A stretch of DNA of 64,000 nucleotides. It comes from Chrysaora quinquecirrha. Its lineage: Eukaryota > Cnidaria > Scyphozoa > Semaeostomeae > Pelagiidae. The stretch covers positions 5,341,913 to 5,405,912 of the forward strand of contig JACTAT010000029.1 in NCBI GenBank assembly GCA_014526335.1, in the 5' to 3' direction. Below are positions 326-38,000 of this stretch, one piece after another; within the stretch, counting starts at the first letter, position 1, and each line of letters begins with the position of its first letter. The notes beneath the pieces are model-generated. The model made no database searches. It was not told the origin of the DNA and saw nothing but the letters and a program-made list of their open reading frames with translations. The translations under genes and the position numbers were made by a program.

Positions 326-2045
326 GATTCTGATGTGACTCAGATCATATTGAGTCCTGGTGAATCTATGGAATCCAGTAAAGCAAGTGTGAAATCAGAT
401 TCAGCGGATTTCTCATTTGAATCATCCGTTGCGACAGACGAACCACAACACGACCTATTCAAATTCACTCGCACAAAATCGGCTACGATTCCCAGATCAC
501 CATCAATAAGAAAAAGAATGGCCCCGAGATCCCAGTCTGTTGGCAAGAGGACCTCCCCGAGAAGACCAGACCAGCTGAGTTTTAGTCCTGGAAGTGCAGG
601 CAAGGATTCATCAAGGACACCCTCACCCGTTGGTAGGAGGTACCGACCGCTTAGTTTGGCAATACCAGACTCACCTAGCTCTGATGAGTTTAGTATGAAG
701 AGCAAGAGGATGAAGAGAACGCAGTCTGAAAGGCGTGTTGTGAAAAGACAAGTTGTTGATGAATACGGAAGAAAACGAATGAGAGAGATCGTTGAGCCTG
801 CATCGCCTATTTCCTTTGCTGATGCAAAAGCTCAAGATGAAAGCACTGTTATTATACATGCGCCTAATCAATCCAGCTCGACAAGCTCCGAAGAGGTCAT
901 TTGTAATGATGAAGGAAGAGTTATAAGGCGAATCATTGAGCGTGTTACACATGTCTACAGAAAAACCAGAATCATTCGTAGAATCATTATAGATGAGTTT
1001 GGAAATGAAAGAGTTACGGAGGAGGAAGTCCCACTTGAAGAAACTGAGACCCCTGCGGAGGACGACGATGATGATAAGATGGTTGTTATCGAAGCTACAG
1101 ATAATGCTCCTGAATCTCCTACTGTACCGTTGCTTAAGTTCTCAGCCAAGCCAATGCGAACTGCTCATTTTGAATGGAAGTCTGATGAAGAGGAGAAACA
1201 CTCTCCAATTGGATCAGAAGATAAAACTGACGTCATTGTCGAGGATGAGCCAAGAATGATCGAGGAAGAACCGGAGCTACTATCTGAAATAGAGGTAACT
1301 AGCACCGAAGGACAGTGGAACGAAGAATTGAGAAGAGACCTCGTGCAGAAATGCAAGTTTTCGGCAGCCAAGCATTGAGGAAGTTGAAGAGAGCATTGAA
1401 GAGCCAGAAACTGTTCTGGAGACAGAAACAATGCCAATGGTTGAGGAAGAGATCATGCCGGAGCCGGTGGTGGAGACAGAAGTTGAAACTGCTCCAGATT
1501 TCACTGTTGATTTCATCGAAACAGAAACGGTGGTGAATCAAGAACCTGAGGAAGACCAGAAGAACCAACAGATCATGCGAACTGTCGTACGTCAAGACAG
1601 CAGTCCTGTGACAAGAAGACGAGTTGTACGCAGCCATGTTGTGGAAAGCCATGAAGAAACTGTCCCAAACGTCTCTTCAACTGATATCATGCAGCCTGAA
1701 GTTGGTGTAGTGGAACAGAAAATCGAGTTTTCAGAAGTTGTCGATCAACCAGTTGATGCAAAATGGAAGAATCTGAGATCATATCATTTCCTGACTTCAT
1801 CATTGAGCCAGAATCATCCCCAGAAACTTTGGTAACAGCTGTGAATGGTGAAGAAGAGGAAGCTTTGCATGGTAAAATGAGATCTTTCAGGACTGTCAGA
1901 AGACAAGAAGGCTCCCCAACGTCACATAGAAAGGTTATAAGAACTAAAGTGAAAACAACAGTTGAAAATGAGAATGAGGTTGAAGAGTTGTCTCCAAATG
2001 AAGTTATCGAAAACGGAGCTGAAACAGTGCATCACATATTAAATG
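326..2045 (+). CDS. Exon 1 of window: Ser/Pro-rich linker followed by charged Arg/Val motifs
   Basis: The acceptor is a TTTTGCAG at 318-325 and the donor is GTAAGT at 2046. Translation starts in phase 0 (DSDVTQIILSPGES) and ends with one spare base. Codons about 50-125 are Ser-Pro/Thr-Pro-rich and basic (RSPSIRKR, RTPSPVGRR), a likely disordered phosphorylation target. Diverged single copies of the array motif follow, for example RRVVKRQVVDEYGRKR near 730-780 and KTRIIRRIIIDEFGNE near 965-1010, then acidic stretches. The frame breaks twice. About 1335-1375 there is a net one-base gain, after which the sequence resumes as FRQPSIEEVEESIEEP. At 1761-1764 one base is missing from an A-run, after which it resumes as MEESEIISFPDFIIEPE. 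With both set aside the exon is 573 codons plus one base, which matches exon 2. Confidence 0.8.
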
Positions 2046-5000
2046 GTAAGTAATAGTCTTGAAATTGTTTTTTTTTTAGCGTCTGCGTAGTTATCGTCAT
2101 TGAGTTCAAAGGCTCAAACTACGACTCAATCTACCGGTTATCTTTTTGGACTTATCTGCCTCTGTCTTAAATTGCCATGGCTTCAGTAATGTCAAAGGTA
2201 AGTGGATGCAATGGCCTAAATCTACCGGGTCTAAATCACCAAACAGGCATCTTTTAAATGGGCATTAACTTGCTGATGCTGCCAGACCCAAAATAGTTCC
2301 GTAAAATTATGAGTCCAAGTTTGAGCGTCTGTATTGCCAAGTTTCATACTTGCATCTGGCGAGGGGCGTTTCACTCCTCGAAAAGCGTATGAGATTCCTA
2401 TTAAAACAAAGGATTCTTGCAAGATTACCAAAAAACAATGGAGATTCCAGCTGAGGGTGTACGAGATTCAAAGGAGTGAATTGCTCCTCGGTATCTGGTG
2501 TCCTAAAGTGCGCGACTTGGCAAAAATTACAATTATTTCCTGGACTATAAAAGGAAACTCGCGTTTTTGGCCCAAAATTTCGAATATTTACCGCCACAAA
2601 ATATATATGCTGTGATTAACAATTCGAATTCTTAAATTTTAAATTTGAATTTTATGAAGTATACTATAAAAGCTCATTAGAAGTCAGAAATTTGCTTGAG
2701 TTTTTTCCCCCGAACTATGTTGATTTTTCTATTTTCCGAGTTATTTCGTAATTGCGTTTGGTCTCAACGACTCCACCAGATACTGATATGAAGTGATTTA
2801 CTTTCATGATGACGAATACATTGTTTAATTTACCCATTCAGCGAGTAAACAGTGTGACTATTTTTCTTGTAGTGTCGCTTTAAGTGAAACAATTAATACA
2901 GTGAGAAAATTGTCTATTAACATTAAATTTTTCTCATTTCTAAGGCATAACCAATGGCCCAGAAGATATCGTCTCCGAGGAAATACAAGTCGCAGAATCA
3001 TTTCAGGCTGAAACGTATAATGAGGAATTGCTTAATGGAACAACACACCTCGAATCAAAGTCATGGCTTATTGATGTCAAGAAGGATAAGCCCGATATTG
3101 TTGAAAGCTTCCCGGAAGAAATTCTAGATGACGTTATCGATCATGTCTGGCAAGAAAGAGTTACAAGAAAAGTATACAGAGAGAAAGTTCCAACATCTAC
3201 TGTTGAAAGCAAAGAAGAAGTCTTGCCTCCTAAGTCAATCATCACAGAAACTGCCGATACTTTCCCTATTCAACCAGCCCCACAAGAGGATGATTTCGTT
3301 ATATTACATGCCAGGAAGCAGGTAGAAAGATTATACAAGAGTGCTATGTTGGTGTATCTTCTTCCTTATTCATATACCAAGCATTTTATAATGAAGGCTG
3401 CTCGATAGAAACCGTGATCAGGAGAGCTTACAGATACAAGGCTTGGAGCACTATTTTATCCAACACTGTATGCTTCAACTCAGCAGAGGCTACAAGTGAC
3501 GCACATATGAAGTCAGAAACGCGTCTCTACTTTTCTGTTTTGAGTATAATGCTACAAAATTACCGACAGCCATTAATGATAACAGATTATAGCGAAACAG
3601 AGGTGTCAAGCATTCTTCGACTAGTATCATATTCTTGAAACAGAAGAGCTACACGAGGACTGAAATTCACCTGAAATTCAATTTACCATCAACGCCAGTG
3701 TACAAACCAGGATATCCAAGTACCTTGACTCAAAAAGACGAGAATGGTAATCTGAATGTCACATCTTCCAGTCAAAGATGCGTTGCAGGATTCAAGTATA
3801 ATGTGCGGATAATTGTCAGTAAAGAACAACGAAAAGATGAACTTCAACAGGAAACTGTCGTCACTCAAACCAAAAGACAGGTTTTTAGAAAAACAGAGAT
3901 CACGCAAGAAGTACAACAGCCTGAACGCATGGTTGAAAAAGAAATTATTCACGGTCTGCCTGAACAACTCAAAGCTGAGGAAATTATCGAAGAGATTATT
4001 GAGGAGCCAGGCTATGATGCTCGAATGGTGGAAAGCCAACCAGATGTTCTTGATTTATTTGCCGAGCCTGAAGTGGCAGAGCCAGAGCCAGAGCCTGCAC
4101 TGTTGTCTGAGATCACGACCCATCGGCAAGTGCACAGGATGAAAGACTTGAAGAAGGATGAACCTAAAGAGGAAAGAAGCAAGATGGACATCCGTAGGAC
4201 TTTGACAGTCAGGAAAAGAATAGTGAAGAAGATCATCTACTTGCCCGACGGCACACCATCAGTTGTAGAGCAAGAGATAGCTGATCATGTCGATGAAGAG
4301 CCTGAAGACGTGCAAATGAAACGTACTGTTGTGAGGAGAGAGCAGGAGACTGTTTCGCGTAGACAAGTGCACAGAAGGCTTACTGCCAAGGAAGTGACTG
4401 AAGAGCCCCTGGTGACTGAATCACTTCTACCTCCAAGAAAGGTCGAGCGTTTATTCGTAAGACGTATATTGAGACAAGAGGATGGTAGAGAAAAACTTCT
4501 GGACAAGTCTGAGAGTGTTGTACCGCTAGAAATAATGCCTGAGGAGCAGGAAGAAGAAGAAGAGGAACCTACTGCGGCTGATAAACTCGATGGCTACATT
4601 GTGAGAAGAGTAATAAGAAGACCAATATTTGTGACCAGCCAGAGAACAGTTATTAGAACACTGGCCCAGAAAGAAGACGGGGAAGAAGAGCAACTGGCAG
4701 CTGATATAATAGAGGATGAAGAACCAGTCGAAAGCACTGAGCCTATGGTAACACACAGGACTGTGAGAAGATTTGTTGGTGTAAAGACGGATGCATTAGA
4801 TGCAGCAGTGCCGCTGGAGATAGTGAGAACAGACAGGCAAGAGCCAGAAGTTGAGCAGAAAGAAGGTGAAGTGACACGCACAGTGCACAGAAGATCGATA
4901 ACAAGAACTCAGCGAAGAGTTGTGAGAAGAATCGTTGAGAGGACTGATGGAAGAACGGAGCCTGTCGAGGACGAAGTATTGCACCCTGTTGAAGCAGTCG

Positions 5001-8000
5001 GCTACAGAGTGATTAGAAGGCGGGTAGTGAAACCAGACGACACAGAGGAAGTTATCGAAGAACCAGAGTACATGTTGCCCGAGGAAGAGAGTCCAGGTGT
5101 TGAAGAAACAAGGCACGAAGATGGCAGCATCGAAAGAAGAGTGATTCGTAGAGCTGTTCCGGTTGTTACCGTTAGAAAGGTGTACAGAACGATTATTATC
5201 ACAGAAGAAGGTGAAGAAGTAAGCTCGGATGAACGAGTTGAAGATGTACCTGTTGTGGAAGAAGAACCAGAGCCAGAAATCAGCGAGGCAAAAGAGGTCA
5301 GAGTGGTGCAAAGGAAAGAACAAGATGTTATTACACGTCGACAGGTGTTTAGAAGATTGAGCGCTAAGAAAGAAGAGGCACCTGCTCCTGTTGATGTCGA
5401 GACTATGGTTGGTGAAGAAGAAGTCATTGCAGAACCAGAAACTATCTTCGAGCAAGAAACAGTGCCAGAGGACAGAGTGATTGAAGAGGAAGAAGAAGAC
5501 GAAAGACTGAGAAGAGTTGTTAGGCGACCAGTGCATCAGATAAGCCGAAGAACTGTTATCAGAAGGTTCCAGGCAGCTTCAGATGAACAAGAATTGATAA
5601 GCGAGGAGACAAAGGACAAGCAGAAAGCAGTGCATGCTAGACGAGTAGTCAGGAGAGCTGTTATGCCAGAAGAGCCAGAAGAAGAGATGATTGCCGAGCC
5701 AGAGCAGATCATTGCTGAAGAATCAACTCCTGAATGGCAGTACAGAGATGAAGATGAAACAGAGAATCTTGAGCGCAAAGTTGTTAGGCGACCTGTGGCT
5801 GAGATCACTTCCAGAAAAGTGTACAGGTCAATACAAGTGGGAAAAGCAGAGGAGCCAGAACGAGAAGAAGTGGTTGAAGAAACTGTAGAGGAGCCAGACT
5901 ATGATGCTCGAGTTGTGGAGAGTCAACCAGATGTTCTCGATTTATTTGCCGAGCCTGAAGTGGCAGAGCCAGAGCCAGAGCCTGCACTGTTGTCTGAGAT
6001 CACGACCCATCGGCAAGTGCACAGGATGAAAGACTTGAAGAAGGATGAACCTAAAGAGGAAAGAAGCAAGATGGACATCCGTAGGACTTTGACAGTCAGG
6101 AAAAGAATAGTGAAGAAGATCATCTACTTGCCCGACGGCACACCATCAGTTGTAGAGCAAGAGATAGCTGATCATGTGGATGAAGAGCCTGAAGACGTGC
6201 AAATGAAACGTACTGTTGTGAGGAGAGAGCAGGAGACTGTTTCGCGTGAGACAAGTGCACAGAAGGCTTACTGCCAAGGAAGTGACTGAAGAGCCCCTGG
6301 TGACTGAATCACTTGTACCTCCAAGAAAGGTCGAGCGTTTATTCGTAAGACGTATATTGAGACAAGAGGATGGTAGAGAAAGACTTCTGGACAAGTCTGA
6401 GAGTGTTGTACCGCTAGAAATAATGCCTGAGGAGCAGGAAGAAGAAGAAGAGGAACCTACTGCGGCTGATAAACTCGATGGCTACATTGTGAGAAGAGTA
6501 ATAAGAAGACCAATATTTGTGACCAGCCAGAGAACAGTTATTAGAACACTGGCCCAGAAAGAAGACGGGGAAGAAGAGCAACTGGCAGCTGATATAATAG
6601 AGGATGAAGAACCAGTCGAAAGCACTGAGCCTATGGTAACACACAGGACTGTGAGAAGATTTGTTGGTGTAAAGACAGATGCATTAGATGCAGCAGTGCC
6701 GCTGGAGATAGTGAGAACAGACAGGCAAGAGCCAGAAGTTGAGCAGAAAGAAGGTGAAATGACTCGCACAGTGCACAGAAGATCGATAACAAGAACTCAG
6801 CGAAGAGTTGTGAGAAGAATCGTTGAGAGGACTGATGGAAGAACGGAGCCTGTCGAGGATGAAGTATTGCACCCTGTTGAAGCAGTCGGCTACAGAGTGA
6901 TTAGAAGGCGGGTAGTGAAACCAGACGACACAGAGGAAGTAATCGAAGAACCAGAGTACATGTTGCCTGAGGAAGAGAGTCCAGGTGTTGAAGAATTAAG
7001 GCACGAAGACGGCAGCATCGAAAGAAGAGTGATTCGTAGAGCTGTTCCGGTTGTTACCGTTAGAAAGGTGTACAGAACGATTATTATCACAGAAGAAGGT
7101 GAAGAAGTAAGCTCGGATGAACAAGTTGAAGATGTACCTGTTGTGGAAGAAGAACCAGAGCCAGAAATCAGCGAGGCAAAAGAGGTCAGAGTGGTGCAAA
7201 GGAAAGAACAAGATGTTATTACACGTCGACAGGTGTTTAGAAGATTGAGCGCTAAGAAAGAAGAGGCACCTGCTCCTGTTGATGTCGAGACTATGGTTGG
7301 TGAAGAAGAAGTCATTGCAGAACCAGAAACTATCTTCGAGCAAGAAACAGTGCCAGAGGACAGAGTGATTGAAGAGGAAGAAGAAGACGAAAGACTGAGA
7401 AGAGTTGTTAGGCGACCAGTGCATCAGATAAGCCGAAGAACTGTTATCAGAAGGTTCCAGGCAGCTTCAGATGAACAAGAATTGATAAGCGAGGAGACAA
7501 AGGACAAGCAGAAAGCAGTGCATGCTAGACGAGTAGTCAGGAGAGCTGTTATGCCAGAAGAGCCAGAAGAAGAGATGATTGCCGAGCCAGAGCAGATCAT
7601 TGCTGAAGAATCAACTCCTGAATGGCAGTACAGAGATGAAGATGAAACAGAGAATCTTGAGCGCAAAGTTGTTAGGCGACCTGTGGCTGAGATCACTTCC
7701 AGAAAAGTGTACAGGTCAATACAAGTGGGAAAAGCAGAGGAGCCAGAACGAGAAGAAGTGGTTGAAGAAACTGTAGAGGAGCCAGACTATGATGCTCGAG
7801 TTGTGGAGAGTCAACCAGATGTTCTCGATTTATTTGCCGAGCCTGAAGTGGCAGAGCCAGAGCCAGAGCCTGCACTGTTGTGTGAGATCACGACCAATCG
7901 GCAAGTGCACAGGATGAAAGACTTGAAGAAGGATGAACCTAAAGAGGAAAGAAGCAAGATGGACATCCGTAGGACTTTGACAGTCAGGAAAAGAATAGTG

Positions 8001-11000
8001 AAGAAGATCATCTACTTGCCCGACGGCACACCATCAGTTGTAGAGCAAGAGATAGCTGATCATGTGGATGAAGAGCCTGAAGACGTGCAAATGAAACGTA
8101 CTGTTGTGAGGAGAGAGCAGGAGACTGTTTCGCGTAGACAAGTGCACAGAAGGCTTACTGCCAAGGAAGTGACTGAAGAGCCCCTGGTGACTGAATCACT
8201 TGTACCTCCAAGAAAGGTCGAGCGTTTATTCGTAAGACGTATATTGAGACAAGAGGATGGTAGAGAAAGACTTCTGGACAAGTCTGAGAGTGTTGTACCG
8301 CTAGAAATAATGCCTGAGGAGCAGGAAGAAGAAGAAGAGGAACCTACTGCGGCTGATAAACTCGATGGCTACATTGTGAGAAGAGTAATAAGAAGACCAA
8401 TATTTGTGACCAGCCAGAGAACAGTTATTAGAACACTGGCCCAGAAAGAAGACGGGGAAGAAGAGCAACTGGCAGCTGATATCATAGAGGATGAAAAACC
8501 AGTCGAAAGCACTGAGCCTATGGTAACACACAGGACTGTGAGAAGATTTGTTGGTGTAAAGACGGATGCATTAGATGCAGCAGTGCCGCTGGAGATAGTG
8601 AGAACAGACAGGCAAGAGCCAGAAGTTGAGCAGAAAGAAGGTGAAGTGACACGCACAGTACACAGAAGATCGATAACAAGAACTCAGCGAAGAGTTGTGA
8701 GAAGAATCCTTGAGAGGACTGATGGAAGAACGGAGCCTGTCGAGGACGAAGTATTGCACCCTGTTGAAGCAGTCGGCTACAGAGTGATTAGAAGGCGGGT
8801 AGTGAAACCAGACGACACAGAGGAAGTAATCGAAGAACCAGAGTACATGTTGCCCGAGGAAGAGAGTCCAGGTGTTGAAGAAATAAGGCACGAAGATGGC
8901 AGCATCGAAAGAAGAGTGATTCGTAGAGCTGTTCCGGTTGTTACCGTTAGAAAGGTGTACAGAACGATTATTATCACAGAAGAAGGTGAAGAAGTAAGCT
9001 CGGATGAACGAGTTGAAGATGTACCTGTTGTGGAAGAAGAACCAGAGCCAGAAATCAGCGAGGCAAAAGAGGTCAGAGTGGTGCAAAGGAAAGAACAAGA
9101 TGTTATTACACATCGACAGGTGTTTAGAAGATTGAGCGCTAAGAAAGAAGAGGCACCTGCTCCTGTTGATGTCGAGACTATGGTTGGTGAAGAAGAAGTC
9201 ATTGCAGAACCAGAAACTATCTTCGAGCAAGAAACAGTGCCAGAGGACAGAGTGATTGAAGAGGAAGAAGAAGACGAAAGACTGAGAAGAGTTGTTAGGC
9301 GACCAGTGCATCAGATAAGCCGAAGAACTGTTATCAGAAGGTTCCAGGCAGCTTCAGATGAACAAGAATTGATAAGCGAGGAGACAAAGGACAAGCAGAA
9401 AGCAGTGCATGCTAGACGAGTAGTCAGGAGAGCTGTTATGCCAGAAGAGCCAGAAGAAGAGATGATTGCCGAGCCAGAGCAGATCATTGCTGAAGAATCA
9501 ACTCCTGAATGGCAGTACAGAGATGAAGATGAAACAGAGAATCTTGAGCGCAAAGTTGTTAGGCGACCTGTGGCTGAGATCACTTCCAGAAAAGTGTACA
9601 GGTCAATACAAGTGGGAAAAGCAGAGGAGCCAGAACGAGAAGAAGTGGTTGAAGAAACTGTAGAGGAGCCAGACTATGATGCTCGAGTTGTGGAGAGTCA
9701 ACCAGATGTTCTCGATTTATTTGCCGAGCCTGAAGTGGCAGAGCCAGAGCCAGAGCCTGCACTGTTGTCTGAGATCACGACCAATCGGCAAGTGCACAGG
9801 ATGAAAGACTTGAAGAAGGATGAACCTAAAGAGGAAAGAAGCAAGATGGACATCCGTAGGACTTTGACAGTCAGGAAAAGAATAGTGAAGAAGATCATCT
9901 ACTTGCCCGACGGCACACCATCAGTTGTAGAGCAAGAGATAGCTGATCATGTCGATGAAGAGCCTGAAGACGTGCAAATGAAACGTGCTGTTGTGAGGAG
10001 AGAGCAGGAGACTGTTTCGCGTAGACAAGTGCACAGAAGGCTTACTGCCAAGGAAGTGACTGAAGAGCCCCTGGTGACTGAATCACTTGTACCTCCAAGA
10101 AAGGTCGAGCGTTTATTCGTAAGACGTATATTGAGACAAGAGGATGGTAGAGAAAGACTTCTGGACAAGTCTGAGAGTGTTGTACCGCTAGAAATAATGC
10201 CTGAGGAGCAGGAAGAAGAAGAAGAGGAACCTACTGCGGCTGATAAACTCGATGGCTATATTGTGAGAAGAGTAATAAGAAGACCAATGTTTGTGACCAG
10301 CCAGAGAACAGTTATTAGAACACTGGCCCAGAAAGAAGACGGGAAGAAGAGCAACTGGCAGCTGATATCATAGAGGATGAAAAACCAGTCGAAAGCACTG
10401 AGCCTATGGTAACACACAGGACTGTGAGAAGATTTGTTGGTGTAAAGACAGATGCATTAGATGCAGCAGTGCCGCTGGAGATAGTGAGAACAGACAGGCA
10501 AGAGCCAGAAGTTGAGCAGAAAGAAGGTGAAGTGACACGCACAGTGCACAGAAGATCGATAACAAGAACTCAGCGAAGAGTTGTGAGAAGAATCGTTGAG
10601 AGGACTGATGGAAGAACGGAGCCTGTCGAGGACGAAGTATTGCACCCTGTTGAAGCAGTCGGCTACAGAGTGATTAGAAGGCGGGTAGTGAAACCAGACG
10701 ACACAGAGGAAGTAATCGAAGAACCAGAGTACATGTTGCCTGAGGAAGAGAGTCCAGGTGTTGAAGAATTAAGGCACGAAGATGGCAGCATCGAAAGAAG
10801 AGTGATTCGTAGAGCTGTTCCGGTTGTTACCGTTAGAAAGGTGTACAGAACGATTATTATCACAGAAGAAGGTGAAGAAGTAAGCTCGGATGAACAAGTT
10901 GAAGATGTACCTGTTGTGGAAGAAGAACCAGAGCCAGAAATCAGCGAGGCAAAAGAGGTCAGAGTGGTGCAAAGGAAAGAACAAGATGTTATTACACGTC

Positions 11001-17000: not shown

Positions 17001-20000
17001 AAGAGATGATTGCCGAGCCAGAGCAGATCATTGCTGAAGAATCAACTCCTGAATGGCAGTACAGAGATGAAGATGAAACAGAGAAGCTTGAGCGCAAAGT
17101 TGTTAGGCGACCTGTGGCTGAGATCACTTCCAGAAAAGTGTACAGGTCAATACAAGTGGGAAAAGCAGAGGAGCCAGAACGAGAAGAAGTGGTTGAAGAA
17201 ACTGTAGAGGAGCCAGACTATGATGCTCGAGTTGTGGAGAGTCAACCAGATGTTCTCGATTTATTTGCCGAGCCTGGAGTGGCAGAGCCAGAGCCAGAGC
17301 CTGCACTGTTGTCTGAGATCACGACCCATCGGCAAGTGCACAGGATGAAAGACTTGAAGAAGGATGAACCTAAAGAGGAAAGAAGCAAGATGGACATCCG
17401 TAGGACTTTGACAGTCAGGAAAAGAATATTGAAGAAGATCATCTACTTGCCCGACGGCACACCATCAGTTGTAGAGCAAGAGATAGCTGATCATGTCGAT
17501 GAAGAGCCTGAAGACGTGCAAATGAAACGTACTGTTGTGAGGAGAGAGCAGGAGACTGTTTCGCGTAGACAAGTGCACAGAAGGCTTACTGCCAAGGAAG
17601 TGACTGAAGAGCCCCTGGTGATTGAATCACTTGTACCTCCAAGAAAGGTCGAGCGTTTATTCGTAAGACGTATATTGAGACAAGAGGATGGTAGAGAAAG
17701 ACTTCTGGACAAGTCTGAGAGTGTTGTACCGCTAGAAATAATGCCTGAGGAGCAGGAAGAAGAAGAAGAGGAACCTACTGCGGCTGATAAACTCGATGGC
17801 TACATTGTGAGAAGAGTAATAAGAAGACCAATATTTGTGACCAGCCAGAGAACAGTTATTAGAACACTGGCCCAGAAAGAAGACGGGGAAGAAGAGCAAC
17901 TGGCAGCTGATATCATAGAGGATGAAAAACCAGTCGAAAGCACTGAGCCTATGGTAACACACAGGACTGTGAGAAGATTTGTTGGTGTAAAGACAGATGC
18001 ATTAGATGCAGCAGTGCCGCTGGAGATAGTGAGAACAGACAGGCAAGAGCCAGAAGTTGAGCAGAAAGAAGGTGAAGTGACACGCACAGTGCACAGAAGA
18101 TCGATAACAAGAACTCAGCGAAGAGTTGTGAGAAGAATCGTTGAGAGGACTGATGGAAGAACGGAGCCTGTCGAGGACGAAGTATTGCACCCTGTTGAAG
18201 CAGTCGGCTACAGAGTGATTAGAAGGCGGGTAGTGAAACCAGACGACACAGAGGAAGTAATCGAAGAACCAGAGTACATGTTGCCTGAGGAAGAGAGTCC
18301 AGGTGTTGAAGAATTAAGGCACGAAGATGGCAGCATCGAAAGAAGAGTGATTCGTAGAGCTGTTCCGGTTGTTACCGTTAGAAAGGTGTACAGAACGATT
18401 ATTATCACAGAAGAAGGTGAAGAAGTAAGCTCGGATGAACAAGTTGAAGATGTACCTGTTGTGGAAGAAGAACCAGAGCCAGAAATCAGCGAGGCAAAAG
18501 AGGTCAGAGTGGTGCAAAGGAAAGAACAAGATGTTATTACACGTCGACAGGTGTTTAGAAGATTGAGCGCTAAGAAAGAAGAGGCACCTGCTCCTGTTGA
18601 TGTCGAGACTATGGTTGGTGAAGAAGAAGTCATTGCAGAACCAGAAACTATCTTCGAGCAAGAAACAGTGCCAGAGGACAGAGTGATTGAAGAGGAAGAA
18701 GAAGACGAAAGACTGAGAAGAGTTGTTAGGCGACCAGTGCATCAGATAAGCCGAAGAACTGTTATCAGAAGGTTCCAGGCAGCTTCAGATGAACAAGAAT
18801 TGATAAGCGAGGAGACAAAGGACAAGCAGAAAGCAGTGCATGCTAGACGAGTAGTCAGGAGAGCTGTTATGCCAGAAGAGCCAGAAGAAGAGATGATTGC
18901 CGAGCCAGAGCAGATCATTGCTGAAGAATCAACTCCTGAATGGCAGTACAGAGATGAAGATGAAACAGAGAAGCTTGAGCGCAAAGTTGTTAGGCGACCT
19001 GTGGCTGAGATCACTTCCAGAAAAGTGTACAGGTCAATACAAGTGGGAAAAGCAGAGGAGCCAGAACGAGAAGAAGTGGTTGAAGAAACTGTAGAGGAGC
19101 CAGACTATGATGCTCGAGTTGTGGAGAGTCAACCAGATGTTCTCGATTTATTTGCCGAGCCTGAAGTGGCAGAGCCAGAGCCAGAGCCTGCACTGTTGTC
19201 TGAGATCACGACCCATCGGCAAGTGCACAGGATGAAAGACTTGAAGAAGGATGAACCTAAAGAGGAAAGAAGCAAGATGGACATCCGTAGGACTTTGACA
19301 GTCAGGAAAAGAATAGTGAAGAAGATCATCTACTTGCCCGACGGCACACCATCAGTTGTAGAGCAAGAGATAGCTGATCATGTCGATGAAGAGCCTGAAG
19401 ACGTGCAAATGAAACGTACTGTTGTGAGGAGAGAGCAGGAGACTGTTTCGCGTAGACAAGTGCACAGAAGGCTTACTGCCAAGGAAGTGACTGAAGAGCC
19501 CCTGGTGACTGAATCACTTGTACCTCCAAGAAAGGTCGAGCGTTTATTCGTAAGACGTATATTGAGACAAGAGGATGGTAGAGAAAGACTTCTGGACAAG
19601 TCTGAGAGTGTTGTACCGCTAGAAATAATGCCTGAGGAGCAGGAAGAAGAAGAAGAGGAGCCTACTGCGGCTGATAAACTCGATGGCTACATTGTGAGAA
19701 GAGTAATAAGAAGACCAATATTTGTGACCAGCCAGAGAACAGTTATTAGAACACTGGCCCAGAAAGAAGACGGGGAAGAGGAGCAACTGGCAGCTGATAT
19801 CATAGAGGATGAAGAACCAGTCGAAAGCACTGAGCCTATGGTAACACACAGGACTGTGAGAAGATTTGTTGGTGTAAAGACAGATGCATTAGATGCAGCA
19901 GTGCCGCTGGAGATAGTGAGAACAGACAGGCAAGAGCCAGAAGTTGAGCAGAAAGAAGGTGAAGTGACACGCACAGTGCACAGAAGATCGATAACAAGAA

Positions 20001-23000
20001 CTCAGCGAAGAGTTGTGAGAAGAATCGTTGAGAGGACTGATGGAAGAACGGAGCCTGTCGAGGACGAAGTATTGCACCCTGTTGAAGCAGTCGGCTACAG
20101 AGTGATTAGAAGGCGGGTAGTGAAACCAGACGACACAGAGGAAGTAATCGAAGAACCAGAGTACATGTTGCCTGAGGAAGAGAGTCCAGGTGTTGAAGAA
20201 TTAAGGCACGAAGATGGCAGCATCGAAAGAAGAGTGATTCGTAGAGCTGTTCCGGTTGTTACCGTTAGAAAGGTGTACAGAACGATTATTATCACAGAAG
20301 AAGGTGAAGAAGTAAGCTCGGATGAACAAGTTGAAGATGTACCTGTTGTGGAAGAAGAACCAGAGCCAGAAATCAGCGAGGCAAAAGAGGTCAGAGTGGT
20401 GCAAAGGAAAGAACAAGATGTTATTACACGTCGACAGGTGTTTAGAAGATTGAGCGCTAAGAAAGAAGAGGCACCTGCTCCTGTTGATGTCGAGACTATG
20501 GTTGGTGAAGAAGAAGTCATTGCAGAACCAGAAACTATCTTCGAGCAAGAAACAGTGCCAGAGGACAGAGTGATTGAAGAGGAAGAAGAAGACGAAAGAC
20601 TGAGAAGAGTTGTTAGGCGACCAGTGCATCAGATAAGCCGAAGAACTGTTATCAGAAGGTTCCAGGCAGCTTCAGATGAACAAGAATTGATAAGCGAGGA
20701 GACAAAGGACAAGCAGAAAGCAGTGCATGCTAGACGAGTAGTCAGGAGAGCTGTTATGCCAGAAGAGCCAGAAGAAGAGATGATTGCCGAGCCAGAGCAG
20801 ATCATTGCTGAAGAATCAACTCCTGAATGGCAGTACAGAGATGAAGATGAAACAGAGAAGCTTGAGCGCAAAGTTGTTAGGCGACCTGTGGCTGAGATCA
20901 CTTCCAGAAAAGTGTACAGGTCAATACAAGTGGGAAAAGCAGAGGAGCCAGAACGAGAAGAAGTGGTTGAAGAAACTGTAGAGGAGCCAGACTATGATGC
21001 TCGAGTTGTGGAGAGTCAACCAGATGTTCTCGATTTATTTGCCGAGCCTGAAGTGGCAGAGCCAGAGCCAGAGCCTGCACTGTTGTCTGAGATCACGACC
21101 CATCGGCAAGTGCACAGGATGAAAGACTTGAAGAAGGATGAACCTAAAGAGGAAAGAAGCAAGATGGACATCCGTAGGACTTTGACAGTCAGGAAAAGAA
21201 TAGTGAAGAAGATCATCTACTTGCCCGACGGCACACCATCAGTTGTAGAGCAAGAGATAGCTGATCATGTCGATGAAGAGCCTGAAGACGTGCAAATGAA
21301 ACGTACCGTTGTGAGGAGAGAGCAGGAGACTGTTTCGCGTAGACAAGTGCACAGAAGGCTTACTGCCAAGGAAGTGACTGAAGAGCCCCTGGTGACTGAA
21401 TCACTTGTACCTCCAAGAAAGGTCGAGCGTTTATTCGTAAGACGTATATTGAGACAAGAGGATGGTAGAGAAAGACTTCTGGACAAGTCTGAGAGTGTTG
21501 TACCGCTAGAAATAATGCCTGAGGAGCAGGAAGAAGAAGAAGAGGAACCTACTGCGGCTGATAAACTCGATGGCTACATTGTGAGAAGAGTAATAAGAAG
21601 ACCAATATTTGTGACCAGCCAGAGAACAGTTATTAGAACACTGGCCCAGAAAGAAGACGGGGAAGAAGAGCAACTGGCAGCTGATATCATAGAGGATGAC
21701 TTGCCCGACGGCACACCATCAGTTGTAGAGCAAGAGATAGCTGATCATGTCGATGAAGAGCCTGAAGACGTGCAAATGAAACGTACTGTTGTGAGGAGAG
21801 AGCAGGAGACTGTTTCGCGTAGACAAGTGCACAGAAGGCTTACTGCCAAGGAAGTGACTGAAGAGCCCCTGGTGACTGAATCACTTGTACCTCCAAGAAA
21901 GGTCGAGCGTTTATTCGTAAGACGTATATTGAGACAAGAGGATGGTAGAGAAAGACTTCTGGACAAGTCTGAGAGTGTTGTACCGCTAGAAATAATGCCT
22001 GAGGAGCAGGAAGAAGAAGAAGAGGAACCTACTGCGGCTGATAAACTCGATGGCTACATTGTGAGAAGAGTAATAAGAAGACCAATATTTGTGACCAGCC
22101 AGAGAACAGTTATTAGAACACTGGCCCAGAAAGAAGACGGGAAGAAGAGCAACTGGCAGCTGATATCATAGAGGATGAAAACCAGTCGAAAGCACTGAGC
22201 CTATGGTAACACACAGGACTGTGAGAAGATTTGTTGGTGTAAAGACAGATGCATTAGATGCAGCAGTGCCGCTGGAGATAGTGAGAACAGACAGGCAAGA
22301 GCCAGAAGTTGAGCAGAAAGAAGGTGAAGTGACACGCACAGTGCACAGAAGATCGATAACAAGAACTCAGCGAAGAGTTGTGAGAAGAATCGTTGAGAGG
22401 ACTGATGGAAGAACGGAGCCTGTCGAGGACGAAGTATTGCACCCTGTTGAAGCAGTCGGCTACAGAGTGATTAGAAGGCGGGTAGTGAAACCAGACGACA
22501 CAGAGGAAGTAATCGAAGAACCAGAGTACATGTTGCCTGAGGAAGAGAGTCCAGGTGTTGAAGAATTAAGGCACGAAGATGGCAGCATCGAAAGAAGAGT
22601 GATTCGTAGAGCTGTTCCGGTTGTTACCGTTAGAAAGGTGTACAGAACGATTATTATCACAGAAGAAGGTGAAGAAGTAAGCTCGGATGAACAAGTTGAA
22701 GATGTACCTGTTGTGGAAGAAGAACCAGAGCCAGAAATCAGCGAGGCAAAAGAGGTCAGAGTGGTGCAAAGGAAAGAACAAGATGTTATTACACGTCGAC
22801 AGGTGTTTAGAAGATTGAGCGCTAAGAAAGAAGAGGCACCTGCTCCTGTTGATGTCGAGACTATGGTTGGTGAAGAAGAAGTCATTGCAGAACCAGAAAC
22901 TATCTTCGAGCAAGAAACAGTGCCAGAGGACAGAGTGATTGAAGAGGAAGAAGAAGACGAAAGACTGAGAAGAGTTGTTAGGCGACCAGTGCATCAGATA

Positions 23001-29000: not shown

Positions 29001-32000
29001 TGTAGAGGAGCCAGACTATGATGCTCGAGTTGTGGAGAGTCAACCAGATGTTCTCGATTTATTTGCCGAGCCTGAAGTGGCAGAGCCAGAGCCAGAGCCT
29101 GCACTGTTGTCTGAGATCACGACCCATCGGCAAGTGCACAGGATGAAAGACTTGAAGAAGGATGAACCTAAAGAGGAAAGAAGCAAGATGGACATCCGTA
29201 GGACTTTGACAGTCAGGAAAAGAATAGTGAAGAAGATCATCTACTTGCCCGACGGCACACCATCAGTTGTAGAGCAAGAGATAGCTGATCATGTCGATGA
29301 AGAGCCTGAAGACGTGCAAATGAAACGTACCGTTGTGAGGAGAGAGCAGGAGACTGTTTCGCGTAGACAAGTGCACAGAAGGCTTACTGCCAAGGAAGTG
29401 ACTGAAGAGCCCCTGGTGACTGAATCACTTGTACCTCCAAGAAAGGTCGAGCGTTTATTCGTAAGACGTATATTGAGACAAGAGGATGGTAGAGAAAGAC
29501 TTCTGGACAAATCTGAGAGTGTTGTACCGCTAGAAATAATGCCTGAGGAGCAGGAAGAAGAAGAAGAGGAACCTACTGCGGCTGATAAACTCGATGGCTA
29601 TATTGTGAGAAGAGTAATAAGAAGACCAATATTTGTGACCAGCCAGAGAACAGTTATTAGAACACTGGCCCAGAAAGAAGACGGGGAAGAAGAGCAACTG
29701 GCAGCTGATATCATAGAGGATGAAAACCAGTCGAAAGCACTGAGCCTATGGTAACACACAGGACTGTGAGAAGATTTGTTGGTGTAAAGACAGATGCATT
29801 AGATGCAGCAGTGCCGCTGGAGATAGTGAGAACAGACAGGCAAGAGCCAGAAGTTGAGCAGAAAGAAGGTGAAGTGACACGCACAGTGCACAGAAGATCG
29901 ATAACAAGAACTCAGCGAAGAGTTGTGAGAAGAATCGTTGAGAGGACTGATGGAAGAACGGAGCCTGTCGAGGACGAAGTATTGCACCCTGTTGAAGCAG
30001 TCGGCTACAGAGTGATTAGAAGGCGGGTAGTGAAACCAGACGACACAGAGGAAGTAATCGAAGAACCAGAGTACATGTTGCCTGAGGAAGAGAGTCCAGG
30101 TGTTGAAGAATTAAGGCACGAAGATGGCAGCATCGAAAGAAGAGTGATTCGTAGAGCTGTTCCGGTTGTTACCGTTAGAAAGGTATACAGAACGATTATT
30201 ATCACAGAAGAAGGTGAAGAAGTAAGCTCGGATGAACAAGTTGAAGATGTACCTGTTGTGGAAGAAGAACCAGAGCCAGAAATCAGCAAGGCAAAAGAGG
30301 TCAGAGTGGTGCAAAGGAAAGAACAAGATGTTATTACACGTCGACAGGTGTTTAGAAGATTGAGCGCTAAGAAAGAAGAGGCACCTGCTCCTGTTGATGT
30401 CGAGACTATGGTTGGTGAAGAAGAAGTCATTGCAGAACCAGAAACTATCTTCGAGCAAGAAACAGTGCCAGAGGACAGAGTGATTGAAGAGGAAGAAGAA
30501 GACGAAAGACTGAGAAGAGTTGTTAGGCGACCAGTGCATCAGATAAGCCGAAGAACTGTTATCAGAAGGTTCCAGGCAGCTTCAGATGAACAAGAATTGA
30601 TAAGCGAGGAGACAAAGGACAAGCAGAAAGCAGTGCATGCTAGACGAGTAGTCAGGAGAGCTGTTATGCCAGAAGAGCCAGAAGAAGAGATGATTGCCGA
30701 GCCAGAGCAGATCATTGCTGAAGAATCAACTCCTGAATGGCAGTACAGAGATGAAGATGAAACAGAGAAGCTTGAGCGCAAAGTTGTTAGGCGACCTGTG
30801 GCTGAGATCACTTCCAGAAAAGTGTACAGGTCAATACAAGTGGGAAAAGCAGAGGAGCCAGAACGAGAAGAAGTGGTTGAAGAAACTGTAGAGGAGCCAG
30901 ACTATGATGCTCGAGTTGTGGAGAGTCAACCAGATGTTCTCGATTTATTTGCCGAGCCTGAAGTGGCAGAGCCAGAGCCAGAGCCTGCACTGTTGTCTGA
31001 GATCACGACCCATCGGCAAGTGCACAGGATGAAAGACTTGAAGAAGGATGAACCTAAAGAGGAAAGAAGCAAGATGGACATCCGTAGGACTTTGACAGTC
31101 AGGAAAAGAATAGTGAAGAAGATCATCTACTTGCCCGACGGCACACCATCAGTTGTAGAGCAAGAGATAGCTGATCATGTCGATGAAGAGCCTGAAGAAG
31201 TGCAAATGAAACGTACTGTTGTGAGGAGAGAGCAGGAGACTGTTTCGCGTAGACAAGTGCACAGAAGGCTTACTGCCAAGGAAGTGACTGAAGAGCCCTG
31301 GTGACTGAATCACTTGTACCTCCAAGAAAGGTCGAGCGTTTATTCGTAAGACGTATATTGAGACAAGAGGATGGTAGAGAAAGACTTCTGGACAAGTCTG
31401 AGAGTGTTGTACCGCTAGAAATAATGCCTGAGGAGCAGGAAGAAGAAGAAGAGGAACCTACTGCGGCTGATAAACTCGATGGCTATATTGTGAGAAGAGT
31501 AATAAGAAGACCAATGTTTGTGACCAGCCAGAGAACAGTTATTAGAACACTGGCCCAGAAAGAAGACGGGGAAGAAGAGCAACTGGCAGCTGATATCATA
31601 GAGGATGAAAAACCAGTCGAAAGCACTGAGCCTATGGTAACACACAGGACTGTGAGAAGATTTGTTGGTGTAAAGACAGATGCATTAGATGCAGCAGTGC
31701 CGCTGGAGATAGTGAGAACAGACAGGCAAGAGCCAGAAGTTGAGCAGAAAGAAGGTGAAGTGACACGCACAGTGCACAGAAGATCGATAACAAGAACTCA
31801 GCGAAGAGTTGTGAGAAGAATCGTTGAGAGGACTGATGGAAGAACGGAGCCTGTCGAGGACGAAGTATTGCACCCTGTTGAAGCAGTCGGCTACAGAGTG
31901 ATTAGAAGGCGGGTAGTGAAACCAGACGACACAGAGGAAGTAATCGAAGAACCAGAGTACATGTTGCCTGAGGAAGAGAGTCCAGGTGTTGAAGAATTAA

Positions 32001-35000
32001 GGCACGAAGATGGCAGCATCGAAAGAAGAGTGATTCGTAGAGCTGTTCCGGTTGTTACCGTTAGAAAGGTGTACAGAACGATTATTATCACAGAAGAAGG
32101 TGAAGAAGTAAGCTCGGATGAACAAGTTGAAGATGTACCTGTTGTGGAAGAAGAACCAGAGCCAGAAATCAGCGAGGCAAAAGAGGTCAGAGTGGTGCAA
32201 AGGAAAGAACAAGATGTTATTACACGTCGACAGGTGTTTAGAAGATTGAGCGCTAAGAAAGAAGAGGCACCTGCTCCTGTTGATGTCGAGACTATGGTTG
32301 GTGAAGAAGAAGTCATTGCAGAACCAGAAACTATCTTCGAGCAAGAAACAGTGCCAGAGGACAGAGTGATTGAAGAGGAAGAAGAAGACGAAAGACTGAG
32401 AAGAGTTGTTAGGCGACCAGTGCATCAGATAAGCCGAAGAACTGTTATCAGAAGGTTCCAGGCAGCTTCAGATGAACAAGAATTGATAAGCGAGGAGACA
32501 AAGGACAAGCAGAAAGCAGTGCATGCTAGACGAGTAGTCAGGAGAGCTGTTATGCCAGAAGAGCCAGAAGAAGAGATGATTGCCGAGCCAGAGCAGATCA
32601 TTGCTGAAGAATCAACTCCTGAATGGCAGTACAGAGATGAAGATGAAACAGAGAAGCTTGAGCGCAAAGTTGTTAGGCGACCTGTGGCTGAGATCACTTC
32701 CAGAAAAGTGTACAGGTCAATACAAGTGGGAAAAGCAGAGGAGCCAGAACGAGAAGAAGTGGTTGAAGAAACTGTAGAGGAGCCAGACTATGATGCTCGA
32801 GTTGTGGAGAGTCAACCAGATGTTCTCGATTTATTTGCCGAGCCTGAAGTGGCAGAGCCAGAGCCAGAGCCTGCACTGTTGTCTGAGATCACGACCCATC
32901 GGCAAGTGCACAGGATGAAAGACTTGAAGAAGGATGAACCTAAAGAGGAAAGAAGCAAGATGGACATCCGTAGGACTTTGACAGTCAGGAAAAGAATAGT
33001 GAAGAAGATCATCTACTTGCCCGACGGCACACCATCAGTTGTAGAGCAAGAGATAGCTGATCATGTCGATGAAGAGCCTGAAGACGTGCAAATGAAACGT
33101 ACTGTTGTGAGGAGAGAGCAGGAGACTGTTTCGCGTAGACAAGTGCACAGAAGGCTTACTGCCAAGGAAGTGACTGAAGAGCCCTGGTGACTGAATCACT
33201 TGTACCTCCAAGAAAGGTCGAGCGTTTATTCGTAAGACGTATATTGAGACAAGAGGATGGTAGAGAAAGACTTCTGGACAAGTCTGAGAGTGTTGTACCG
33301 CTAGAAATAATGCCTGAGGAGCAGGAAGAAGAAGAAGAGGAACCTACTGCGGCTGATAAACTCGATGGCTACATTGTGAGAAGAGTAATAAGAAGACCAA
33401 TATTTGTGACCAGCCAGAGAACAGTTATTAGAACACTGGCCCAGAAAGAAGACGGGGAAGAAGAGCAACTGGCAGCTGATATCATAGAGGATGAAAAACC
33501 AGTCGAAAGCACTGAGCCTATGGTAACACACAGGACTGTGAGAAGATTTGTTGGTGTAAAGACAGATGCATTAGATGCAGCAGTGCCGCTGGAGATAGTG
33601 AGAACAGACAGGCAAGAGCCAGAAGTTGAGCAGAAAGAAGGTGAAGTGACACGCACAGTGCACAGAAGATCGATAACAAGAACTCAGCGAAGAGTTGTGA
33701 GAAGAATCGTTGAGAGGACTGATGGAAGAACGGAGCCTGTCGAGGACGAAGTATTGCACCCTGTTGAAGCAGTCGGCTACAGAGTGATTAGAAGGCGGGT
33801 AGTGAAACCAGACACAGAGGAAGTAATCGAAGAACCAGAGTACATGTTGCCTGAGGAAGAGAGTCCAGGTGTTGAAGAATTAAGGCACGAAGATGGCAGC
33901 ATCGAAAGAAGAGTGATTCGTAGAGCTGTTCCGGTTGTTACCGTTAGAAAGGTGTACAGAACGATTATTATCACAGAAGAAGGTGAAGAAGTAAGCTCGG
34001 ATGAACAAGTTGAAGATGTACCTGTTGTGGAAGAAGAACCAGAGCCAGAAATCAGCGAGGCAAAAGAGGTCAGAGTGGTGCAAAGGAAAGAACAAGATGT
34101 TATTACACGTCGACAGGTGTTTAGAAGATTGAGCGCTAAGAAAGAAGAGGCACCTGCTCCTGTTGATGTCGAGACTATGGTTGGTGAAGAAGAAGTCATT
34201 GCAGAACCAGAAACTATCTTCGAGCAAGAAACAGTGCCAGAGGACAGAGTGATTGAAGAGGAAGAAGAAGACGAAAGACTGAGAAGAGTTGTTAGGCGAC
34301 CAGTGCATCAGATAAGCCGAAGAACTGTTATCAGAAGGTTCCAGGCAGCTTCAGATGAACAAGAATTGATAAGCGAGGAGACAAAGGACAAGCAGAAAGC
34401 AGTGCATGCTAGACGAGTAGTCAGGAGAGCTGTTATGCCAGAAGAGCCAGAAGAAGAGATGATTGCCGAGCCAGAGCAGATCATTGCTGAAGAATCAACT
34501 CCTGAATGGCAGTACAGAGATGAAGATGAAACAGAGAAGCTTGAGCGCAAAGTTGTTAGGCGACCTGTGGCTGAGATCACTTCCAGAAAAGTGTACAGGT
34601 CAATACAAGTGGGAAAAGCAGAGGAGCCAGAACGAGAAGAAGTGGTTGAAGAAACTGTAGAGGAGCCAGACTATGATGCTCGAGTTGTGGAGAGTCAACC
34701 AGATGTTCTCGATTTATTTGCCGAGCCTGAAGTGGCAGAGCCAGAGCCAGAGCCTGCACTGTTGTCTGAGATCACGACCCATCGGCAAGTGCACAGGATG
34801 AAAGACTTGAAGAAGGATGAACCTAAAGAGGAAAGAAGCAAGATGGACATCCGTAGGACTTTGACAGTCAGGAAAAGAATAGTGAAGAAGATCATCTACT
34901 TGCCCGACGGCACACCATCAGTTGTAGAGCAAGAGATAGCTGATCATGTCGATGAAGAGCCTGAAGACGTGCAAATGAAACGTACTGTTGTGAGGAGAGA

Positions 35001-38000
35001 GCAGGAGACTGTTTCGCGTAGACAAGTGCACAGAAGGCTTACTGCCAAGGAAGTGACTGAAGAGCCCTGGTGACTGAATCACTTGTACCTCCAAGAAAGG
35101 TCGAGCGTTTATTCGTAAGACGTATATTGAGACAAGAGGATGGTAGAGAAAGACTTCTGGACAAGTCTGAGAGTGTTGTACCGCTAGAAATAATGCCTGA
35201 GGAGCAGGAAGAAGAAGAAGAGGAACCTACTGCGGCTGATAAACTCGATGGCTATATTGTGAGAAGAGTAATAAGAAGACCAATATTTGTGACCAGCCAG
35301 AGAACAGTTATTAGAACACTGGCCCAGAAAGAAGACGGGGAAGAAGAGCAACTGGCAGCTGATATCATAGAGGATGAAAAACCAGTCGAAAGCACTGAGC
35401 CTATGGTAACACACAGGACTGTGAGAAGATTTGTTGGTGTAAAGACAGATGCATTAGATGCAGCAGTGCCGCTGGAGATAGTGAGAACAGACAGGCAAGA
35501 GCCAGAAGTTGAGCAGAAAGAAGGTGAAGTGACACGCACAGTGCACAGAAGATCGATAACAAGAACTCAGCGAAGAGTTGTGAGAAGAATCGTTGAGAGG
35601 ACTGATGGAAGAACGGAGCCTGTCGAGGACGAAGTATTGCACCCTGTTGAAGCAGTCGGCTACAGAGTGATTAGAAGGCGGGTAGTGAAACCAGACGACA
35701 CAGAGGAAGTAATCGAAGAACCAGAGTACATGTTGCCTGAGGAAGAGAGTCCAGGTGTTGAAGAATTAAGGCACGAAGATGGCAGCATCGAAAGAAGAGT
35801 GATTCGTAGAGCTGTTCCGGTTGTTACCGTTAGAAAGGTGTACAGAACGATTATTATCACAGAAGAAGGTGAAGAAGTAAGCTCGGATGAACAAGTTGAA
35901 GATGTACCTGTTGTGGAAGAAGAACCAGAGCCAGAAATCAGCGAGGCAAAAGAGGTCAGAGTGGTGCAAAGGAAAGAACAAGATGTTATTACACGTCGAC
36001 AGGTGTTTAGAAGATTGAGCGCTAAGAAAGAAGAGGCACCTGCTCCTGTTGATGTCGAGACTATGGTTAGTGAAGAAGAAGTCATTGCAGAACCAGAAAC
36101 TATCTTCGAGCAAGAAACAGTTCCGGATGACATTGACAGTAGGGTTTCTGTTGCTATTATTAGAGGAAAAGATGACATCGTTTCTGATGACGAAGATAGA
36201 ACAGAACCCGTCACCCGCCGTGTTGTGCACAGAAGGGTAGTTGGTGCTGGCAGCATTGAATTTGAACCTGGCTGTCAAGGAATCACTGAGATAGAGTCTG
36301 TTTCTCCTGAGGTACATATTGCTAAAACCGTTACTTCAATAAGAAGATCTTCGGACACTGATGATGGTGTTTACAAAGATGTCGTGTCTCATCGAAAAGT
36401 GCATAGAAATGTGTTAGCTGCTGCCCCTGTACCTGAGGTGTATATCGAGCCTCCCGTTTCCGTAACATCATTAGAAGAGACTCCAGAATTGTTCCCACCT
36501 GAAATTGAAATTGAACCTGACGGTAAGCCACCTGCTCTTTTAAGAGAGGTCCGAAGAAGTTCACTTCCTTTAGCGACCCGGAGAAGTGTTTTGCGTGTCA
36601 GTCAGGCACAGCCTGCTTCAGTTGCCCAGGAACACCTAGAGGAAATAGAAGTAACGCCAGCTATTGAAGAATTTGCTGTTGTATCTCCGACAGAAGTTAC
36701 CATTGCAGGAAAAGATTGAAGAAAGACGCTCTAAAGCTAGGATGAAGACATTCGTTTATCGAAAGGTTTTTGTTACTGTTAAGACTGTCATGGTGAGAAA
36801 GCTTGTTGATGAACATGGTGAAGTCATTGAAGACCTTGATAATATTCCTGAAGGTTATAAAGAACACTCTGAAGATTCACTAGATAGAGATGGTATGTGA
36901 ATGATTTTCCAGCAAAATTGTCGTAACTCTTAACATATAAAGGTTTTTAGCCAAGTCGTTTTCTGTGGTATTCTTTTGAGATTTTGTGTTATTTAAAGGC
37001 AGTCTTCTGAAACTGGTACTTTGAGGGAAAGAACTTTCATGGGAAGAAACTTTCGAAACTCAGAAAAACGCGAAATTTTTTAAATTAACTTTCGCGAATC
37101 AGTAAAATGGATATTTCCGGGAAAAACTTTCGCGCTTAACTGCGCGAGCAGTATGTTTTTGGAATAACTCCAGCGAATTTGACTTTTTAATGGGGTTTCC
37201 GACATTTTATGTATCTCAACTCTCCATGAATAGTAGACCCTAAATTGCCTTGTAAAACCTTAAACTGAGCAAAGTTTCTGGAAATTATTCCAAATATTCC
37301 ATATTTTCCTGTGATAATCATTCGTTAATGTTTTGTTAAAGAAAACTTTCGCTTGAGCTAACTTTCGCGAAGTTGATATTTTGAAAGATTTCGCGTAGTA
37401 AACTTTGGCGAATTTCGACCAAAAACGTGAAAAACGTTTCAAAAATAGTTTCTTCCCGTGAAGGTTTTTTCTTTTGAAGTTCTCTGTAACACGCTCCTCT
37501 GCAGAGCATGCATCATAAAAATTTATTTCTTGCAACAAATTCGCTATTGGAACACAAACATGTAGCCAAACAATCAAACATTGCTTGTTTAAGAAAATCT
37601 CAAATGGTTGACCAGCAATGTTGAATCGTTTGTCCACGGTCTAAGAGTATACTTTTACTGCTACATTCACATTCTGTTCCTTTTTCATCAGAGTTTTTCT
37701 TGTTTTTTTTTTTTGTCAGGTTCTGGAGGGTCAAGGTCTAGAACTACTAGGTTTGTTAGCGAAGAAGAGAGTCATACTCAGACACGACGATTATCTGCAA
37801 AGAGAGGCAAGGACAAATCGGAAACAAAGTTTGCAAGTGTTGGCACTCAGTGTGATTTTGATGACCTAAAAATGGCTGCTCAATTTTCTGATTCAAAACC
37901 AGAACAGATAACTACCTCTACGCAGTTTACATCCTCTGTTTTGCCTCAAAAGTATGCGGAAACAAGCATTACAGTTGAAGCAACATATCCCAAGTCTGCG

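Follow-up and report, generated by a model that had tools for sequence, protein, structure and literature searches.

The stretch analyzed here, referred to as the window, is 64,000 nucleotides (nt) from the scyphozoan Chrysaora quinquecirrha (contig JACTAT010000029.1, positions 5,341,913 to 5,405,912 of the forward strand). It lies within a 6.29-Mb contig (C224) of an assembly of 328 Mb in 740 contigs. The window holds part of a spectraplakin-like gene, and this gene appears to contain a giant coding exon made largely of near-identical tandem repeats. The repeat array sits within a low-complexity insert that parts two blocks of spectrin repeats. Spectrin-like exons are found 5' of the insert, from about -10 kb to -326. 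After the insert come predicted rod exons of phase 0-0, about 330 nt long and most of them of spectrin-repeat length and type, that extend from 40000 to about +101 kb. Beyond the rod there are an EF-hand-like exon, a GAS2 domain and a basic Ser-rich tail, and the gene reaches about +103.6 kb.

The giant exon, 3644-36892 on the plus strand, is 33,249 nt as assembled and forms a single reading frame, barring single-base indels. After frame reconciliation it would be about 33,259 nt, by arithmetic from the unit alignment. It very probably codes for protein. The exon ends were taken from exon prediction and the phases at 3644 and 36892 from arithmetic. The exon-chain script over-predicts small intronic exons, and reliance was placed on the long, spectrin-like exons. 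Phases are compatible at each junction, phase 1 at 2045/2945, phase 0 at 3321/3644, and phase 1 at 36892/37720. The donor at 36892 (5.1) and the acceptor at 37720 (9.6) both score well, and 3644 is the highest-scoring of the phase-compatible acceptors in 3330-3980. An earlier note on this DNA had proposed a single coding exon of about 33 kb, which is confirmed by the open frame and by the agreement of phases at both ends. It had also described clean splice sites at the exon ends. The donor and the matching phases bear this out, but the acceptor at 3644 is weak. In the exon or exons that open the insert, the reading frame is interrupted at about 1294-1368 and 1831-1891, by either base errors or two short introns. 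A scan of the window and its flanks with Rfam gave nothing at gathering thresholds.

The consensus repeat unit is 1887 nt (1883-1888 nt in the assembled units), or 629 codons, and a single one of its frames is open over the full length. Among 4000 random units matched for dinucleotides, the longest open stretch was 201 codons. A k-mer used as anchor recurs at spacings of 1883-1888 nt plus one step of 480 nt, with 18 occurrences between 4239 and 34898. The starts of the 16 complete units run from 4239 to 33015. The partial copy at the 5' edge matches the unit at 94%, and the last partial copy, 34898-36132, is followed by unique open sequence. The array totals about 17.04 unit lengths, so that the 17 near-identical repeats of 629 residues claimed in the earlier note hold as a length, while the complete copies number 16 and the partial ones three. 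The features are listed in Table 1.

Table 1. Features of the giant exon, its array and the sister array (window positions unless a contig is named).
Feature	Position	Strand	Length	Details
Coding exon(s) opening the insert	326..2045	+		Begins Ser/Arg-rich; degenerate Arg/Val motifs with acidic linkers follow; donor 2045 scores 6.9
Short coding exon of the insert	2945..3321	+		Phase 1 in, phase 0 out
Giant coding exon	3644..36892	+		Enters in phase 0 and leaves in phase 1; splice scores 5.07 (donor) and 2.97 (acceptor, weak)
Tandem array	3977..36132	+		262-nt partial; 16 complete units of about 1887 nt (4239-34897) with a 480-nt partial within this series; last partial of 1235 nt
Example complete unit	17447..19333	+	629 codons	Used as query
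Partial unit	21219..21698	+	480 nt (160 codons)	Abrupt junction, frame kept
Predicted exons 3' of the array	37720..38904	+		Phase-1 exon from 37720; last exon ends in a spectrin-like segment
Start of the downstream spectrin rod	40000..60650	+		Mostly exons of about 330 nt, phase 0-0; 17 predicted in the window
Sister array, predicted exon	C1, about 2,236,125-2,267,897		31.8 kb	Splice scores 6.9 and 6.2

The spectrin-like segment that ends the exons at 37720..38904 is common to the sister gene described below. Two short tandem repeats are also present 3' of the array. At 38056-38229, in the exons that follow it, there is a 15-nt repeat that encodes EEPVC-like pentapeptides and is open in two frames. 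At 48953-49600, between rod exons, there is a 15-nt minisatellite of 43 copies that is open in several frames and is probably intronic.

The 16 complete units differ from one another by a mean of 0.42% and by at most 18 of 1887 positions. Neighboring copies are more similar (rank correlation 0.26, matched or exceeded in 65 of 5000 permutations), and the most diverged copies are the first three. Such similarity could favor a reading in which the array is real and its copy number is an artifact of assembly, collapsed or expanded, as could the one pair of units that has no substitution between its members. However, 15 of the 16 units are distinct by their substitutions, and 14 of the 45 variant sites are common to at least two units, unlike random errors. 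An artifact of this kind appears unlikely.

The variant sites among the 16 units consist of 26 nonsynonymous and 19 synonymous sites, with no stop; about 12 of 45 would be expected to be synonymous without selection, by arithmetic. One-base indels are present in 10 of the 16 complete units as assembled. If these breaks were genuine, the array could be a decaying pseudo-exon. The breaks at about 1294-1891 would agree with this, as would further breaks next to GGAAAAGAT, near 36716 and within the conserved GAS2 exon, and so would the sister array, which has more breaks, some of them outside homopolymers. However, all 12 one-base deletions in the complete units and the homologous part of the last partial copy fall in the unit's only CCCC (seven), GGGG (three), and AAAAA (two). 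These three runs are the longest or the G/C homopolymers of the unit. The remaining indels of the array are one 1-nt insertion outside the runs and one 3-nt deletion, in a count that leaves out the 70 gap columns of the alignment where the end of the last copy has diverged. The conserved GAS2 domain has the same type of break. Because the one-base deletions are confined to homopolymers and no stop is found among the 45 substitution sites, the frame breaks fit consensus errors of a long-read-type assembly better than decay, and a pseudo-exon is very unlikely.

The protein encoded by the unit is 25% acidic and 18% basic, with 19.7% Glu, 13.7% Val, and 12.9% Arg. Basic and acidic residues are segregated into blocks (blockiness 0.100; maximum 0.068 in 1000 shuffles). 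The unit is built of old, diverged sub-repeats, each with a basic motif stretch, sometimes an E/P-D-G-like turn, and then an acidic stretch. A motif like R-x-V-x-R-R...T-x-R-x-V-x-R is present in seven copies per unit, and the exons around the array carry related motifs. In a model from an alignment of 16 segments, the motif is predicted to form a short hairpin, with a mean predicted local distance difference test (pLDDT) of 72. Inside the unit there is an old half-unit duplication of 269 aligned codons. Its proportion of synonymous differences (pS) is 0.745, which is saturated, and its proportion of nonsynonymous differences (pN) is 0.455. This constraint speaks for long-term translation. It is possible, though less than likely, that the exon is a real coding exon and yet serves as a passive spacer or entropic spring, with a sequence that matters for charge and disorder alone. 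The strong charge patterning is consistent with a spacer, and the unit has no Pfam match better than chance (best E 0.41) and none to Plectin. The sub-repeat motifs argue otherwise, as they are conserved at the residue level across saturated synonymous divergence, both within the unit and between paralogs. Searched against the PDB, the unit, a single rod exon and a single upstream exon yielded chance matches only.

The identity of the host gene can be read from its flanking and 3' exons. The GAS2 domain matches Pfam PF02187 at 3.4e-22 and the MACF1 GAR structure 5ve9 at 7.4e-16. The spectrin family PF00435 was found at 2.4e-26 on seven upstream exons and at 2.2e-40 on the last rod exons, in both cases on exons that we had joined. 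One exon matches EF-hand_1 at 0.0013 (18.5 bits, below the cut-off of 25.4), and a candidate second exon has no EF-hand match. The order is spectrin rod, EF-hand-like exon and GAS2, with no adjacent actin-binding domain detected. The earlier note had spoken of a spectrin-rod protein to which the exon would add a long polyampholyte. The addition is supported, at about 11,000 residues from the length of about 33,259 nt, and the rod protein can now be refined to a spectraplakin-like one that is GAS2-terminated. A nesprin of the ANC-1/Msp300 kind was rejected because the C-terminus has GAS2 and an EF-hand-like exon, and a giant ankyrin was rejected because the insert is flanked by spectrin repeats.

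A search of the genome with the unit protein of the window found a second locus, on contig C1, with 31-41% identity to it. This sister array also has 16 complete units. Their consensus is 1575 nt (525 codons) and their mean pairwise difference is 0.38%. Of 487 aligned residues, 179 are identical between the sister and window units, with a score of 637 (100 shuffles reached 219 at most). Synonymous sites are saturated between the two (pS 0.79; pN 0.44). The insertion point is the same in the two genes and has paralogous rod exons on either side. In the comparison of exon pairs chosen by order, the best score was with the partner in eight of eight (two before and six after the insert), these eight flanking exons being all that were fetched and compared. 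The sister insert appears to be one whole exon up to the next spectrin repeat, again with frame breaks, and its strand also carries a GAS2 domain about 66 kb downstream. Its 29 variant sites comprise 18 nonsynonymous, 10 synonymous, no stop, and one not classed.

The splice sites leave room for an array that is mostly skipped or internally spliced, with a giant isoform that is minor or absent. The weak acceptor at 3644 is consistent with this, and the best donor inside the unit, at 5.1, falls in the range of the gene's own donors. If 2945-3321 and the array were both skipped, phase would be preserved (2045 phase 1 to 37720 phase 1). Skipping of the array exon alone, however, disrupts the frame, the sister exon has stronger predicted sites, and the half-unit and paralog comparisons point to long-term constraint on the protein. 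Predominant skipping is quite improbable.

The reading that we prefer, with a probability of about 0.7, is that a spectraplakin-like gene has here a giant coding exon, homogenized under selection, that encodes a long charge-patterned linker. Rather than sequencing noise, the giant repeats seem to be genuine protein that is maintained. Young copies (about 0.4% apart) of old units with saturated synonymous sites, present in two paralogs, point to concerted evolution of an old, selected element. Unequal exchange or gene conversion would homogenize each array, and selection would keep the frame and the protein by filtering the products of exchange. The 480-nt partial unit, at 160 codons, would fit such frame filtering, although chance would give this in one case of three. 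The product would gain about 11,000 residues in which basic blocks alternate with acidic ones, possibly a very long extensible linker. The many weak binding sites of this linker would most likely be for itself or for filaments with an acidic surface, such as microtubules, to which GAS2 domains also bind. Because joint skipping of 2945-3321 and the array keeps the frame and skipping of the array alone does not, a short isoform that joins 2045 to 37720 is predicted.

The insert would be placed where bilaterian spectraplakins carry plectin repeats, which in maps of b-type spectraplakin isoforms lie between spectrin blocks. A stronger proposal is that selection acts on the length of the array itself. 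Each of the two paralogs would keep 16 complete copies of its own homogenized megarepeat in an exon of 32-33 kb, and the insert, with more than 100 motif copies, would serve as a charge-patterned ruler or spring of megadalton size in place of the plectin repeats that bind intermediate filaments in bilaterians. This is a doubtful extension. If the array is transcribed as one exon, the linker would be about 11,000 residues long, and the exon would rank, to our knowledge and in comparison with those of mucins and titin, with the largest coding ones. Concerted evolution within a coding exon has a clean natural test in these two paralogous arrays, whose units are old and whose copies are young. The arrays also bear on whether selection acts on the number of repeats in giant cytolinkers, and on what occupied the plectin-repeat position before intermediate-filament linkers arose.

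A number of observations weigh against the preferred reading. The acceptor at 3644 scores 2.97, whereas the 17 rod acceptors score 4.0-9.6, and two AGs inside the repeat unit outscore it (3.76 and 3.05). In the sister array, several recurrent one-base indels are in CGAAGAG-like contexts, outside long homopolymers, and the sister variants by themselves show little selection and give weaker support. The copy number in this assembly may be wrong. The hairpin model of the motif has a predicted template modeling score (pTM) of 0.22, and the whole unit folded alone gave an uninformative pLDDT of 34.9; multivalent binding by the insert is putative. As for the host gene, the upstream repeats have their best PDB matches in utrophin and dystrophin and not in plakins. 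No tandem CH was found near the gene (30 CH matches genome-wide, none on C1 and two on C224), in a scan that could miss a short exon below threshold. No plakin domain or SH3 was found either, as the upstream exons scanned were generic spectrin or nothing, and short exons may escape such a scan. Plectin (PF00681) has zero matches in the genome and likewise zero in all 14 control genomes. The coral Stylophora is reported to have a full CH-plakin spectraplakin (PMC9145010), so a truncation here need not typify cnidarians.

Several other features were observed around the gene and elsewhere in the assembly. Two minus-strand open reading frames (ORFs) with CH, of 719 and 715 codons, are found at C224:4995796 and 5076262, 346 and 265 kb upstream and outside this gene. 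A same-strand gene upstream (L007:3349-3687 to L008:2163-2378) has SH3_9 at 5.1e-19 and WD40 at 4.4e-05, below its cut-off; it is presumably AHI1/jouberin-like. Its SH3 exon was rejected as a plakin SH3, as it follows WD40-like exons and resembles the neighboring AHI1/jouberin gene. Several related ORFs that resemble secreted proteins are present on both strands (L005:8028-8870 and others up to window position -36995), and the one that was scanned has no Pfam match. Downstream of the gene (L014:3939-7148) there is an open frame of 1070 codons with a reverse transcriptase domain (RVT_1, 1e-37), of long interspersed nuclear element (LINE) type. Contig C179 carries intact COX1 and COX2 frames on opposite strands at 1.3 Mb (L023), which can be a mitochondrial insertion or an assembly join. 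Within the 525 residues of the COX1 frame, TGA is read as Trp 11 times; AGA fits Arg and AAA fits Lys. This code fits Cnidaria, Porifera or Placozoa, and the opposite-strand arrangement of COX1 and COX2 is medusozoan. Together they suggest a cnidarian, probably a jellyfish.

A literature search turned up no spectraplakin with such an array, which does not prove its absence from print. The gene resembles the spectraplakins MACF1, dystonin, Short stop, and VAB-10 in its spectrin rod, EF-hand-like exon and GAS2. It differs from them in that CH, plakin SH3 and plectin repeats were found in none of its scans. Plectin repeats have been placed in Bilateria (PMC9145010). Among non-bilaterian spectraplakins, those of a sponge and a placozoan are without CH-plakin and that of Nematostella is called truncated (PMC9145010). 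These are alike in lacking modules, and the available part of that account mentions no giant repeat array for them. The giant ankyrins AnkG, Ank2, and UNC-44 have long inserted exons that are said to be lacking in cnidarian ankyrins (PMC5135030). Likened by description, they also have a giant Glu-rich exon within a spectrin-network protein, but on an ankyrin scaffold. FAZ10 of Trypanosoma brucei, in which a 35-residue repeat occurs 52 times in coiled coils, is possibly mis-assembled (PMC5358337). It too is a giant cytoskeletal protein with nearly identical repeats, though unrelated and with short coiled-coil units. In Nematostella proteins tandem repeats are common, with units mostly of 5-20 residues (PMC2805694).

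The closest system appears to be ANC-1 of C. elegans, an ortholog of nesprin-1/2 with six repeats of about 903 residues at a nucleotide identity of almost 100% (PMC8139857). Deletion of its repeats gives an intermediate nuclear anchorage defect (PMC8139857). Both are giant spectrin-family cytolinkers with long near-identical tandem units, which here differ by 0.42% and 0.38% in the two arrays. ANC-1 differs in that its repeats are fewer, longer and predicted to be helical, and in that it is a nesprin with CH and KASH. The jellyfish gene has instead GAS2, an Arg/Glu polyampholyte unit, and diverged arrays in two paralogous genes. By this analogy the array has a precedent in kind, and what is new here is the second array in a paralogous gene, which adds interest to an otherwise known kind.

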